From positions 1 to 64,000 of the forward strand of contig PBNE01000010.1 in assembly GCA_002722885.1 (NCBI GenBank): a DNA stretch of 64,000 nucleotides. The letters are read 5' to 3'. Source of the stretch: Rhodospirillaceae bacterium (lineage in GTDB: Bacteria; Pseudomonadota; Alphaproteobacteria; SP197). Under the pieces are notes generated by a model. The model did no database searches, was not told the DNA's origin, and saw nothing but the letters and a program-made list of their open reading frames with translations. The position numbers and the translations under genes are program-made. Positions 15,951-21,309 of this stretch are shown here, piece by piece; positions within the stretch are counted from its first letter, which is position 1; each line of letters begins with the position of its first letter.

Positions 15951-17303
15951 TCAAATCAGTCCGTCGTCACGCACGTCCTGGAGGGCGTCACAAAACGCCT
16001 GTCCAATGGTGTCGATGTCTTCGGGCGTGTGTTCGGTCGAGGTGAAGAAGAGATGGATGCCCGGCACGATCACGCCGCGGGCCATCAGATGGACATAAAA
16101 CTCCTGCTCGGCCTCGTGATTGGAGCCTTCGAAATCGCGTGATGTCCTGATGCCGCGCTTGAAGTGCATGTGAAAGATCGAGCCGGCGTTGTGGAGTTCC
16201 GCACCGATCTGGCGCTCCTCGCAAAAGCCATTGACGATCGCGGCAAGCCGGTCGGCCTGCTCGTTGAGCTTGGGATAGATGGTGTCCCGGTGGTCTCGCA
16301 TGTGGGTGAGTGCGGCGATCCCGGCGGCCATGGTGAGCGGGTTGCCGGAGAATGTTCCGCCCAGGAACACGCCCTCGGGGTCACCCCAGGTCTTGCCCAG
16401 TGGTGCCATCACATCCGATTTGCCCGACAGCGCGCCGATCGGCATGCCACCGGCCAGCGCCTTGCCCCAGGTCATGAGATCGGCGTCGACATCGAAGTAT
16501 TCCATGCCGCCACCGAAGCCGAGCCGGAAACCGGTCACGACCTCGTCGAGCAGATAAAGGACACCGCATTCGCGGCAGACATCGCGCAATTCCTGGAGGA
16601 ACGGCCCGACATCGGCGCGCGGAACGCTGTTCTGCACCGGCTGGACCATGACCACGGCCAGCTCGGCCTTGTGCCTGCGGATCAGATCAAACGCGGCGAG
16701 GTCGTCATAGGGCAGCACCAGCATGGTGTCGTCTCGGATGGTGTCAGGCACGCCGTTGCCCAGCACCTTCGCGGTCGGTTCACTGCGCGGACTGGCCGGG
16801 TCGGCCTTGACCAACGCGTAGTCGTGCGCGCCGTGGTAGCAGCCGTCGAACACAGCGACCCGGTTCTTGCCGGTGTGGGCACGGGCAATCCGCATGCCGT
16901 ACATCGTGGCTTCCGTGCCGGAGTTGCAGAAGACGGTCTTTTCGGCGCCCGGTGCAGCTTCGCGGATCAGTTCGGCAAGCTCGTGCTGACGGTCGTTCTT
17001 GAGCACCAGATGCCAGGTCCGGCCCAGTTGCTCGTGCATAGCATCTTCAACCACCTTGGGCCGATGCCCCAGAACGTGAGGCCCTGCCCCCATGGTGAGG
17101 TCGAGGAAGGTGTTGCCGTCGACATCGGTGACATGCGCACCTTCAGCGGAGTGGATGTAGAGCGGCGACGGCATCTCGAAGGTCGGCACAATCTCCACGG
17201 GCAGCAGATCGGCGCTCTTTTCGTTCATGGCCGCTGAGGTCGGCGTCATCTCCGCGAGCTTACGCCGCGCTTCAGCACCCCTGGTTCCCACATCCACATT
17301 CAT
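15951..17303 (-). CDS. GSA-type class III aminotransferase
   Basis: 450 aa from ATG 17303, behind GGGGGAG; longer starts run into the urease promoter. It has the fold and length of glutamate-1-semialdehyde aminomutase/class III aminotransferases: NSGTEATMYGMRIARA for the cofactor phosphate, YLLDEVVTGFR with the PLP Asp, and the Schiff-base lysine K281 in WGKALAGGMPIGA. Unlike true HemL it lies in a catabolic setting and there is a second paralogue at 39117-40442, so it is probably an amine or beta-amino acid transaminase or mutase. It diverges from the urease-like genes with 106 bp between, suggesting shared control (inference). Confidence 0.88.
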   Translation of the reverse strand: MNVDVGTRGAEARRKLAEMTPTSAAMNEKSADLLPVEIVPTFEMPSPLYIHSAEGAHVTDVDGNTFLDLTMGAGPHVLGHRPKVVEDAMHEQLGRTWHLVLKNDRQHELAELIREAAPGAEKTVFCNSGTEATMYGMRIARAHTGKNRVAVFDGCYHGAHDYALVKADPASPRSEPTAKVLGNGVPDTIRDDTMLVLPYDDLAAFDLIRRHKAELAVVMVQPVQNSVPRADVGPFLQELRDVCRECGVLYLLDEVVTGFRLGFGGGMEYFDVDADLMTWGKALAGGMPIGALSGKSDVMAPLGKTWGDPEGVFLGGTFSGNPLTMAAGIAALTHMRDHRDTIYPKLNEQADRLAAIVNGFCEERQIGAELHNAGSIFHMHFKRGIRTSRDFEGSNHEAEQEFYVHLMARGVIVPGIHLFFTSTEHTPEDIDTIGQAFCDALQDVRDDGLI

Positions 17304-17409: not shown

Positions 17410-18105
17410 ATGATGCTGACACCGACCGAACTCGACCGGCTGACGCTGCACACTGCAGCGGAGCTGGCGCGCAAGAGACAGGCGCGCGGCCTGAAACTCA
17501 ATCTTCCGGAAGCCCAGGCTTTGTTGTGCGACGAATGTCTGGAAGCGGCGCGTGACGGCCGGTCGCTGGATGATGTCATGGCCTTTGCCGTGACCATTCT
17601 GACCACCGATGACGTGCTGCCCGACGTGCCTGAGCTCCTGGGCCTGCTCTCAGTCGAAGCCATGTTTGAAGACGGCGCCAAGACTGTCACGGTGTGGCAG
17701 CCGATCCGGCCCGGCAAGGAGACGCGTGAGGCCGGCCTGCGACCCGGCGCCATCCTGGCCGAAGACGGCGAGATCGAACTCAACTCCGGTGTGGACAAGA
17801 CGACGCTGGTGGTGCTCAACACCGGGGACAGGCCCGTGCATGTTTCGACCCATTTCCACTTTTTCGAATGTAACAGGGAGCTGGAGTTCGACCGCGCGGG
17901 GGCGTTCGGCTACCGGCTCGACCTGCCCGCAGGCGCGACCGCACGGTTTGACCCCGGTGAATCCAAGGAGGTCATCCTGACCAAGATCGCGGGCACCGGC
18001 GAGGTGACCGGACTGAACCGCCTGACCGAGGGCTCCATCCATGATCCCGTCGTGAAGGCGGCCGCGCTGCGCCGGGCGCGCGAACGCGGCTTCCGGGGGG
18101 CCTGA
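17410..18105 (+). CDS. ureAB: Urease gamma-beta fused subunit
   Basis: 231 aa. Residues 1-100 are urease gamma (LTPTELDRLTLHTAAELA, KLNLPEAQALL, AARDGRSLDDVM, VPELLGLLSVEAMFEDG). Residues 110-231 are urease beta (GAILAEDGEIELN, THFHFFECNRELEFDR, FGYRLDLPAGATARFDPGE, TGLNRLTEG). An AGGGGAG ribosome site precedes ATG 17410. Three nt separate it from ureC. Gamma-beta fusions occur in several lineages. No ureDEFG accessory genes lie in the window, so nickel loading would need genes elsewhere. Partner of the divergent ureC that follows. Confidence 0.92.
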   Translation: MMLTPTELDRLTLHTAAELARKRQARGLKLNLPEAQALLCDECLEAARDGRSLDDVMAFAVTILTTDDVLPDVPELLGLLSVEAMFEDGAKTVTVWQPIRPGKETREAGLRPGAILAEDGEIELNSGVDKTTLVVLNTGDRPVHVSTHFHFFECNRELEFDRAGAFGYRLDLPAGATARFDPGESKEVILTKIAGTGEVTGLNRLTEGSIHDPVVKAAALRRARERGFRGA

Positions 18106-18108
18106 GCC

Positions 18109-19818
18109 ATGGTCACGATGACACGCGAACGCTACGCCGACATGTTCGGCCCCACCACCGGCGACCGTATCCGCCTGGGCGACACCAATCTTTTGGCTCG
18201 CATCGAACACGACCACATCACGCCAGGTGAGGAATCAATCACCGGTGTGGGCAAGACCCTGCGCGACGGCAACGGGATCGACGGTGGCGCACTCCTGGCC
18301 GACGGCGCGCTGGAGGTCGTGATCTCGAATGTCGTCATCATGTGCCCCGTGCAGGGCATCATGAAGGGCGACATCGGCATCAGGGATGGTCGCATCTGCG
18401 CCATCGGCAAGGCGGGCAACCCCGCGATCATGGGCGGGGTGACGCCGGGCATGGTGATCGGGCCGGGCACCAAGCATTTCAGCGGCCAGGGCATGATCGC
18501 AACGCCCGGCGGGGTCGATGTTCATTCCCACTACGGCCAGCCAGACGAGATGCGACATGCCCTGTCTTCGGGACTGACCACGATCATCGGCGGCAGCTAT
18601 CCGGGCTGCTGGTCGATCGACAGCGGCGGCGACTGGGCCAACGCCAAGATGCTGAAGGCGCTGGAGGCTTTCCCGTTGAACTTCGGCCTGTTCAGCCGTG
18701 GCGGAGCGAATGCCGGTGCTGCCATCGAAGAGCAGATTTCTTCAGGCGTCATCGGCGTGAAGATCCACGAAGATCTCGGCGCGATGCCTGCGGTGCTGGA
18801 CACCTGCCTGAGTGTTGCCGATACGCTCGATTTCCAAGTGCAGCTTCACACGGACTCGATGAACGAAGCCGGGTTCTACGAGAGCACCATGGAGGCCATC
18901 GCGGGGCGTACGATCCACATGTACCACACCGAAGGTGCCGGCGGCGGCCACGCGCCCGACATCATCCGCTGTAACGGCGAAACTCATTGCCTGCCGTCAT
19001 CGACCTCGCCGACCAATCCGTTCACGCTGAACGCCTTCGGCGAACACATGGACATGATGATGCTCTGCCACACCCTGCGCGGCGACATCGAGGAGGACGT
19101 GGCCTTTGCCGAAAGCCGGTTGCGGCCCCAGTCGATGGCGGCCGAGGATGTGCTGCACGACCTTGGCGCGATCTCTATGGCAGGTTCCGATGCCGAGGGC
19201 ATGGGGCGCGTCATGGACGTGATCGCCGGGATGTGGCGCCTGGCCGACAAGATGAAAACTGAACGCGGCCCGCTGCCGGACGAACCCTTCGACAATGCCG
19301 ACAATGCCCGCATCCTGCGTTACCTCGCCAAGACCACGATCAACCCTGCTATCACCTTCGGCATCGCCAATCACATCGGCAGCCTGGAGGTCGGCAAGAT
19401 GGCCGACATCGTGCTGTGGAACCCGGCATTCTTCGGCGTGAAGGCCAGCCAGATCATCAAGGGCGGAGCGCAAATCTGGAGTGCGATGGGCGATTCCTCT
19501 GGATCGCTCTTCAACACGGAACCGACGATTTACACCGAAAGCTGGCATGCCCTGGGCAGTGCGCCCAACACGCTTTCGGCGATCTTCGTGCATCCCAGCG
19601 CGCTGGATGCCGATGTTGCCGGTCGCTGGGATGTCGCCAAGCCGCTGGTCCCGATCAGCGGCACGCGGACGCTGGGCAAGGCCGACATGGTGCGCAACAA
19701 CGCCCTGCCGGAGATCACCGTGAATCCGCAGACGTTTGAAGTCTTCGCCGACGGTGAACTCGCTACAACGGCTCCCTCGACCAAGGTGCCACTCGCGCGG
19801 ACCTACTTCCTGCGCTGA
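18109..19818 (+). CDS. ureC: Divergent urease alpha subunit, nickel site intact
   Basis: 569 aa, normal UreC length. Every nickel and catalytic residue aligns: H139/H141 (DVHSH), carbamylated K218 and H220 (GVKIHED), H247 (LHTDSMNE), H273 (HTEGAGGGH), flap C320-H321 (MLCHTL), R337 (AESRLR) and D361 (SDAEGMGR). Between the first His pair and the lysine, however, the highly conserved stretch is replaced. HSHYGQPDEMRHAL stands where ureases have H-x-H-x-I-C-P-Q-Q, and GGSYPGCWSIDSGGDW replaces the Gly/Thr-rich T-C-T-P-G-P-W segment, about four residues shorter. It is therefore a urease-family amidohydrolase that could use urea or another ureido substrate. Nickel use is inference. Confidence 0.9.
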   Translation: MVTMTRERYADMFGPTTGDRIRLGDTNLLARIEHDHITPGEESITGVGKTLRDGNGIDGGALLADGALEVVISNVVIMCPVQGIMKGDIGIRDGRICAIGKAGNPAIMGGVTPGMVIGPGTKHFSGQGMIATPGGVDVHSHYGQPDEMRHALSSGLTTIIGGSYPGCWSIDSGGDWANAKMLKALEAFPLNFGLFSRGGANAGAAIEEQISSGVIGVKIHEDLGAMPAVLDTCLSVADTLDFQVQLHTDSMNEAGFYESTMEAIAGRTIHMYHTEGAGGGHAPDIIRCNGETHCLPSSTSPTNPFTLNAFGEHMDMMMLCHTLRGDIEEDVAFAESRLRPQSMAAEDVLHDLGAISMAGSDAEGMGRVMDVIAGMWRLADKMKTERGPLPDEPFDNADNARILRYLAKTTINPAITFGIANHIGSLEVGKMADIVLWNPAFFGVKASQIIKGGAQIWSAMGDSSGSLFNTEPTIYTESWHALGSAPNTLSAIFVHPSALDADVAGRWDVAKPLVPISGTRTLGKADMVRNNALPEITVNPQTFEVFADGELATTAPSTKVPLARTYFLR

Positions 19819-20052: not shown

Positions 20053-21309
20053 ATGTTTGCAGCCATTGCTTCCGTCTGGGCTTTGCTCGTTGGTGTGTCG
20101 TTTCTGATGGCCGGTAGTGGCCTCCAGGGTTCGCTCCTCGGCATTCGCGCCTCGGACGCCGGGTTTTCAGGCCTGATGACTGGTCTGATCATGTCCGCTT
20201 ATTTCGCCGGCTTCGTCGGTGGCTTTGCCATCGTGCCCAGACTGGTGCGCAATGTTGGACATATCCGGGTGTTCAGCGCCTTGGCCTCGATCGCGTCAGC
20301 CATCGCCGTGCTGCATTCGGTGTTTGTGGATCCAATCGTCTGGATCGGCCTGAGAACCCTGACCGGCTTCTGCTACATCGGTATCTACATTATCGCCGAG
20401 AGCTGGCTGAACGACCGGTCAACCAACGAGAACCGTGGCCAGATTCTCTCGGTCTACATGATCGTCATGACAGCGGCGATGGCTGTGGGCCCCCTTCTCC
20501 TGAACATCGGCGACCCCAGCGGCTTCGACCTCTTCATTGCAGCGTCGGTTCTGGTGTCCCTGTCCCTGGTACCGGTTTCCCTGACGACCTATTCCGCACC
20601 GAAGTTCGAGGAGCAGGACCGTCTTGGCATCCGGGAACTGATCAAGATTTCACCCCTGGGCGTGGCGGCAGGCCTGACCAGCGGCGCGACCGCGGGAGCG
20701 CTTGTCTGGCTGGCGTCAGTCTATGGCGACAAGATCGGCATGTCGCTCAACACGATTTCACTGTTCGTAGCGGCATCCATCGTCGGCGGTGCCGTGTTGC
20801 AGTGGCCTATCGGACACCTCAGCGACCGCTTCGACCGCCGCCGCATCCTGACCATTGTTGCGTTCATCGGCGCGACCTGCGCTGTCGGCGCAACTTTCGT
20901 CGGCACCGAGAGCTCGACGATCCAGATGGTGGCTGTTGCCTTGGTAGGAGCCTTCGTCGCGCCGATCTATTCGCTGTCGATTGCTCACACCAACGACTTC
21001 CTGACGCCGAAACAGATGGTGGCGGCCTCAAGCGGGCTACTGCTGGCCAACGGAATCGGGGGCATGATCGGACCGACCGTAGCCGGTGGCGCCATGCAAA
21101 TGCTCGGACCGTCGGGTTACTTCTGGTTCCCGGCCGCCACGATGGGCGCTCTGGGTACGTTCGCGCTCTATCGCATGACCCGGCGTGCGGCCGTCCCGCT
21201 CGAAGAGCAGGGGCAGTACATCAGTATGCCGAGGACCTCAGGCGTGTTTGCCAAGATTGCGCTGCGGGATCAGATGGACCGCGACATCGCCGACATGTCT
21301 CGGCGCTGA
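20053..21309 (+). CDS. MFS transporter, YcaD-like
   Basis: 418 aa with about twelve hydrophobic segments. Characteristic stretches are IVPRLVRNVGHIRVFSALA in the first intracellular loop, CYIGIYIIAESWLNDRST near residue 113, and GHLSDRFDRRR in the central loop. This matches the YcaD/major facilitator group, whose substrates are poorly known. It follows ureC after a 234-bp gap that contains no gene, so it may have its own promoter. Export or uptake of a small metabolite linked to the urease-like pair is possible but only suggested by position. Confidence 0.85.
   Translation: MFAAIASVWALLVGVSFLMAGSGLQGSLLGIRASDAGFSGLMTGLIMSAYFAGFVGGFAIVPRLVRNVGHIRVFSALASIASAIAVLHSVFVDPIVWIGLRTLTGFCYIGIYIIAESWLNDRSTNENRGQILSVYMIVMTAAMAVGPLLLNIGDPSGFDLFIAASVLVSLSLVPVSLTTYSAPKFEEQDRLGIRELIKISPLGVAAGLTSGATAGALVWLASVYGDKIGMSLNTISLFVAASIVGGAVLQWPIGHLSDRFDRRRILTIVAFIGATCAVGATFVGTESSTIQMVAVALVGAFVAPIYSLSIAHTNDFLTPKQMVAASSGLLLANGIGGMIGPTVAGGAMQMLGPSGYFWFPAATMGALGTFALYRMTRRAAVPLEEQGQYISMPRTSGVFAKIALRDQMDRDIADMSRR

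Follow-up and report, generated by a model that had tools for sequence, protein, structure and literature searches.

Urease is usually treated as a one-substrate enzyme. In a 64,000-nt stretch of a Rhodospirillaceae genome (the window), a fused ureAB gene and a ureC gene (Table 1) encode a protein pair with a urease-type nickel site and a rewritten segment next to it, while a tblastn panel gave no match to ureD, ureE, ureF or ureG anywhere in the window, as a previous reading of this DNA, made from the sequence only, had stated. This raises the question whether the pair still forms a working nickel enzyme, from where its maturation proteins are supplied and whether urea is its substrate. The answer that we favor, and to which we give an even chance as a whole, is that UreAB-UreC, a member of a remodelled urease lineage, would function as a nickel hydrolase after maturation in trans, with urea as its most likely substrate.

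Table 1. Features of the urease-like locus, in window coordinates.
Feature	Position	Strand	Evidence or remark
Class III aminotransferase, GSA-aminomutase-like	15951-17234	-	below hemL cut-off
ureAB, fused urease gamma and beta subunits, 231 aa	17410-18105	+	NF009671, 313.8 bits (cut-off 243); PDB matches to fused UreA/UreB chains
ureC, divergent urease alpha subunit, 569 aa	18109-19818	+	TIGR01792 equivalog, 701.3 bits (cut-off 680)
Rewritten segment after the H-x-H nickel motif, ureC codons 142-180	18532-18648	+	alignments; covers the place of Ala170 (S. pasteurii numbering)
G364 codon of UreC, equivalent to A363 (K. aerogenes) and A366 (S. pasteurii)	19198-19200	+	Gly clade-wide
MFS transporter, downstream of ureC	20053-21309	+	in 10/12 class I loci

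The window enzyme shares with canonical bacterial urease (K. aerogenes, S. pasteurii) the fold, the nickel ligands, the lysine, the catalytic His and Arg and, in the window's own sub-lineage (class I), the flap Cys. Canonical urease differs from it by an intact Ala167 region and Ala363, a segment that is four residues longer, unfused UreA and UreB and its position in a separate clade. UreC passed the NCBIfam urease equivalog model, and the 39 best solved structural matches of its AlphaFold model (mean pLDDT 83.6) were all ureases, with TM scores of 0.94-0.96 for the top ten and a TM score of 0.95 at 49% identity for K. aerogenes urease. The iron urease UreA2B2 of H. mustelae (3qga) is also among the structural matches. 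The earlier claim that all nickel ligands and catalytic residues are kept was borne out: H139, H141, K218, H220, H247, H273, H321, R337 and D361 were invariant in a 35-row UreC alignment, and the same nine residues together with C320 were found in 12/12 class I UreCs.

The segment following the H-x-H motif had been described as replaced and about four residues shorter. Measured from the second nickel His to the next helix, it spans 40 residues in the window UreC versus 44 in K. aerogenes, a difference of exactly four, and both ICPQQ and TCTPGPW are gone. In the structure prediction, residues 161-180 of the replaced segment reached a pLDDT of 65-72, a lower confidence than in the rest of the model. 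The ureC frame is open across 569 codons, comparison with five relatives gave a dN/dS of 0.08-0.21 (rough values, as dS is 0.7-1.0), and the segment changes are identical in all 12 class I loci, so that the altered segment is not a product of chance.

A second change, absent from the earlier note, lies at the position of A363 (K. aerogenes numbering), which is Gly in 51/51 divergent UreCs and Ala in 17/17 canonical rows of our tree. Across the same 51 and 17 rows, A167 and the TCTPG run are replaced in the divergent proteins, and K196 to Arg and F271 to Tyr exchanges are present in all 51. Naming one residue at 167 was given up, because either Ser or Trp stands there depending on gap placement in the alignment, which limits the claim to a rewritten region. 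Two positions beyond the second nickel His, Ile is present in 17/17 canonical rows, Lys in 7/7 rows of class II (the type of the second UreC in the window's genome), Asp in 21 of the 51 divergent UreCs and Gly, Ile, Ala or Leu in class I; we take this position to be the place of the carboxylate-binding Arg of dihydroorotase (HxHxR). From the correspondence of His320 and His323, S. pasteurii numbering is offset from that of K. aerogenes by three. In S. pasteurii, the carbonyls of Ala170 and Ala366 hydrogen-bond the urea nitrogens and the C-beta of Ala366 touches a nickel-bound water, according to an excerpt of PMC7433671. Both urea-holding alanines are affected in the clade, with Gly at the place of Ala366 in every divergent row and the Ala170 region rewritten.

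For the phylogenetic analysis of 72 UreC sequences, the rewritten segment and columns 319 and 363 were excluded, so that these changes cannot drive the tree. All 51 divergent UreCs nevertheless formed one clade (100/99) apart from canonical ureases, which upholds the earlier suggestion of a second urease-family lineage; the term clade depends on the root, here L181, which is one of three long branches (L181, L184, L162) and whose join with L180 is suspect. Sixteen of the 17 canonical rows fell into another clade (98/93), and one Streptomyces row was placed outside. The sister of the divergent clade is the type found on Klebsiella and Ancylobacter plasmids (100/90), followed by Haloarcula (98/97). 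Class I (12 rows, 100/100) lies inside a derived group of 29 rows (100/100) together with class II and others, and this group is nested among members with full operons. Class II as a single clade is not firm (52/89, L086 uncertain). Judged by its sequence, the window UreC is a genuine urease-family nickel enzyme of a separate branch.

The Klebsiella/Ancylobacter-plasmid urease resembles the window enzyme in Gly at 363, the loss of TCTPGPW and the fused AB, but belongs to the sister clade and has Ser at 319. It is carried on plasmids of Klebsiella michiganensis and Ancylobacter (L178, L182), the Ancylobacter plasmid having the order AB-C-G-D-E-F with ANTAR and nitrilase genes. The UreC of a Haloarcula marismortui plasmid (L176) has a shortened segment yet keeps Ala363. 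A Streptomyces ure(AB)C pair (S. anulatus plasmid, L181) is similar to the window in its fused AB plus C with no accessory gene annotated in 7.6 kb; unlike the window, it keeps Ala363, has Val at 319 and stands outside the clade on a long branch.

A genome scan that began from an alignment of divergent segments, of which the best 80 loci were kept and which is therefore no census, recovered among others records of Pseudomonas, Stutzerimonas, Paraburkholderia, Bradyrhizobium, Rhodopseudomonas and Binatota. Column 363 is reached by 78 of these 80 loci and is Gly in 78/78, while L107 and L109 end earlier. Identity to the window UreC fails to separate the types, so that matches typed by identity alone may be either: Gly at 363 was also found in L222 (51% identical) and in L216 and L218 (47%, genomes G301 and G378), the latter two with another segment again. 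By sequence, the Gly-363 group is wider than the 51 clade rows of the tree.

A cluster of the order ureEF(AB)CGD was described in 2008 for Bradyrhizobium BTAi1 (Bbta_1962, Bbta_4442) and P. syringae B728a (Psyr_2197), as stated in part of PMC2492869. Locus L148, which starts at the position given for Bbta_1962, falls into the same clade as the window UreC. This cluster has the fused AB in common with the window, and the accessory genes of the window's genome keep its E-F-G-D order; in contrast to the cluster, AB-C of the window lineage stand outside the accessory operon, beside an aminotransferase and an MFS gene. Early-branching members of the clade (64 loci assigned by segment, 19 of them in the tree, 44 of at least 16 kb) have mostly complete ureE-F-AB-C-G-D operons. 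In the 44 long loci, ureE, F, G and D all lie within 4 kb of ureC in 41, at least three of urtB-E are present in 37, amiE in 19, a CbbQ-VWA pair in 18 and AmiC-like or ANTAR genes in 15. Local ureE, F, G or D genes were found in 0/12 class I and 0/8 class II loci, and the other 12 derived-group loci are mixed (ureE in 2, F in 6, G in 2, D in 8). The window's sub-lineage, probably matured in trans, is on these sequence comparisons a derived branch.

The literature searched yielded no published assay of any clade member. For M. smegmatis, sections of PMC4222082 describe ureEFABCGD and ureABCFG clusters, urease activity that was low in whole cells and a failure to grow when urea was the only source offered, and in these sections the activity is assigned to neither cluster; this would weigh against urea should the M. 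smegmatis UreC belong to the clade. Urt-like permeases beside amidases in Bradyrhizobium japonicum are argued, in a passage of PMC3098086, to carry amides and not urea. SCO5526 appears as a Streptomyces ureC in PMC2492869 and as an nrd gene in PMC4991794.

To locate the maturation genes, we searched the window's genome, a 3.71 Mb bin (98.56% complete, 8.66% contamination), for ureDEFG and a canonical second ureC, as had been proposed. It holds only two UreCs, that of the window and a class II protein on contig C19 which lacks the flap Cys, and no canonical UreC. The C19 gene neighbors glycine-betaine-type transport genes, a DppA-like binding protein gene and an MttB-like gene. UreD and UreG gave one match each, both in an isolated ureE-F-G-D operon on contig C6, in which UreE and UreF were identified by similarity and which is followed by a VWA and an AAA gene on the other strand. 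The idea of a urease matured without a local accessory set thus stands for the locus itself and for class I in general, but not for the genome, whose complete operon means that nothing unusual about maturation is needed. The same lone operon in the same order is present in 12 kin genomes (L163-L174; two end at a contig end inside ureD, and the VWA/AAA pair is found in five), and among 42 genomes tested of 116, UreD matched the presence of UreC exactly (25 both, 17 neither). Together with the lack of foreign composition in C19 and C6, this makes maturation in trans most likely. UreEFGD encoded on C6, on which the window UreC presumably depends, would carbamylate the lysine and load two nickels in trans, and would mature the class II paralogue as well. 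Of what the sequence-only reading had named as speaking against a separate lineage, the accessory operon elsewhere was found and would serve just the two divergent enzymes; UreC, however, lies outside the ordinary clade, and the literature searched offered no close homologue with demonstrated urease activity. Locus L005 (8942-10651) encodes a class II UreC that lacks the flap Cys, carries Lys two positions past the second nickel His and lies beside betaine-type transport and MttB-like genes; the substrate of this UreC may be acidic.

The pairing of window and operon would be an artefact if the C19 UreC or the C6 operon were bin contamination. The contamination estimate of the bin speaks for this, but in tetranucleotide usage, stretches taken from C10, C19, C6 and five further contigs correlated with one another at 0.94-0.99, compared with 0.80-0.90 to a same-genus genome, and in the kin genome G008 a single 3.4 Mb contig carries ureEFGD together with the class I and class II genes, which renders such an artefact extremely improbable. 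It is also quite unlikely that UreABC is a remnant or serves some purpose other than catalysis: the missing local accessory genes and the lost flap Cys of the class II paralogue would fit, but the low dN/dS, the catalytic residues kept throughout class I and the presence of UreD in 17/17 tested genomes with such UreCs argue against it. A live nickel enzyme matured in trans is the most likely reading of the window UreABC from these comparisons. More weight has to be given to a changed specificity, in which the clade, together with the window enzyme, would consist of UreEFGD-matured nickel amidohydrolases acting mainly on other small amides or on N-substituted ureas, each sub-lineage on its own; we rate this only slightly short of an even chance. 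It is in agreement with the A363 to Gly change and the rewritten Ala167 region, with the residue two after the second nickel His (Lys in class II, Asp in 21 of 51, small or aliphatic in class I) and with the amiE and AmiC-like or ANTAR genes in early-branching loci. Furthermore, a canonical UreC was also present in 25/25 isolate genomes with an early-branching member (among the best 80 loci, by residue check), and G008 combines a single UreD with three types of UreC, namely class I, class II and canonical; two bins tested alongside the isolates differed, the Binatota bin having a canonical copy and the gammaproteobacterial bin G422 no canonical UreC match. On the other hand, UreC is common anyway: 80 of 115 relatives of one isolate have some UreC, 3 of them a divergent one, each with a second (typed by identity, which is unsafe), and the coexistence with canonical urease is therefore suggestive, not strong. 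The retained catalytic residues, the passed equivalog model and the shortened segment of the Haloarcula pNG700 UreC also count against a new specificity, and backbone carbonyls can survive an exchange of Ala for Gly.

In the favored reading, a bridging hydroxide would attack a C=O with a nitrogen leaving group, as in urease, and the most likely substrate would be urea freed in the cell by many ureohydrolases, giving ammonium and CO2. We consider urea about as probable as all other substrates together, another small amide or ureide somewhat less than evenly probable, and the ureido or guanidino substrate proposed earlier possible. In favor of urea, the genome has 12 matches to the ureohydrolase family PF00491. 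Such genes number 6-19 in the 13 genomes with a class I or II UreC (this one included) and 0-5 in 21 more distant genomes, counts that fragmented bins may inflate. Three members of the same family without a class I or II UreC still have many (G003, 5; G013, 8; G011, 8), and since G003 and G013 are without any UreC, the expansion does not require a urease. G093 has 10 ureohydrolases, while the divergent UreCs of G085 and G095 are accompanied by 1 and 0. The absence of a urea carboxylase over the cut-off from the 19 genomes searched also speaks for urea, as do the urtB-E genes near most early-branching ureCs; against it speak the two affected alanines, the three UreC types of G008, the amide transport argued for Urt-like permeases and the lack of a UrtA over the cut-off in the window's genome. 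The twelve arginase/agmatinase-family matches, a number that compares with 5-19 across genomes of the same family, lie on contigs C2, C3, C6, C7, C8, C12, C13 and C18 (L225-L229, L232-L242), and a TauD-like dioxygenase gene accompanies 3/11 of these loci in the window's genome. The names of kin bins (RHO1_bin_48, EF100-94H03) look to us like those of sponge microbiome bins. For sponge microbiomes, part of PMC6742649 reports genes for the production of urea out of creatine and agmatine.

At the scale of the whole branch, which extends from Pseudomonas and Bradyrhizobium to uncultured symbiont-like Alphaproteobacteria and Binatota, we tentatively propose, at rather less than an even chance, that urease maturation builds non-urea nickel enzymes, in which the rebuilt Ala167/Ala363 cradle and the residue two positions past the second nickel His might set which small amide or ureide each sub-lineage accepts. 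As ureC serves as a marker of urea utilization (stated in part of PMC3669342), a clade with a rebuilt cradle that occurs beside canonical urease in all 25 isolates among the best 80 loci matters in one of two ways: either ureC counts overestimate urea use, or nickel relatives with new substrates sit in databases annotated as 'urease subunit alpha'.

The GSA-type aminotransferase and the MFS gene were found at the flanks of the pair, as the sequence-only reading had them. The aminotransferase was dropped as a clue to the substrate, being present in just 5/12 class I loci, some of which end at contig ends. An Rfam search of the window gave no match, hence no guanidine or other riboswitch, and in eight related loci it gave four, namely livK RNA twice and 5'ureB sRNA twice, the latter on the strand opposite ureC; none of these provides a hint to a ligand. 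A link to metformin or guanylurea through plasmid pMET1 was likewise rejected; the neighborhood there holds urt and taurine genes and nothing decisive.

On pMRAD01 of Methylobacterium radiotolerans, genes for the breakdown of urate and allantoin (L159, 944-4329) are separated by about 3 kb from the operon of the divergent urease. The bin G422 encodes three divergent UreCs (L086, L117, L140), two of them about 8 kb apart on one contig. In Pseudomonas grimontii (G407), the clade-type UreC gene of L124 contains an in-frame TGA and may have decayed.
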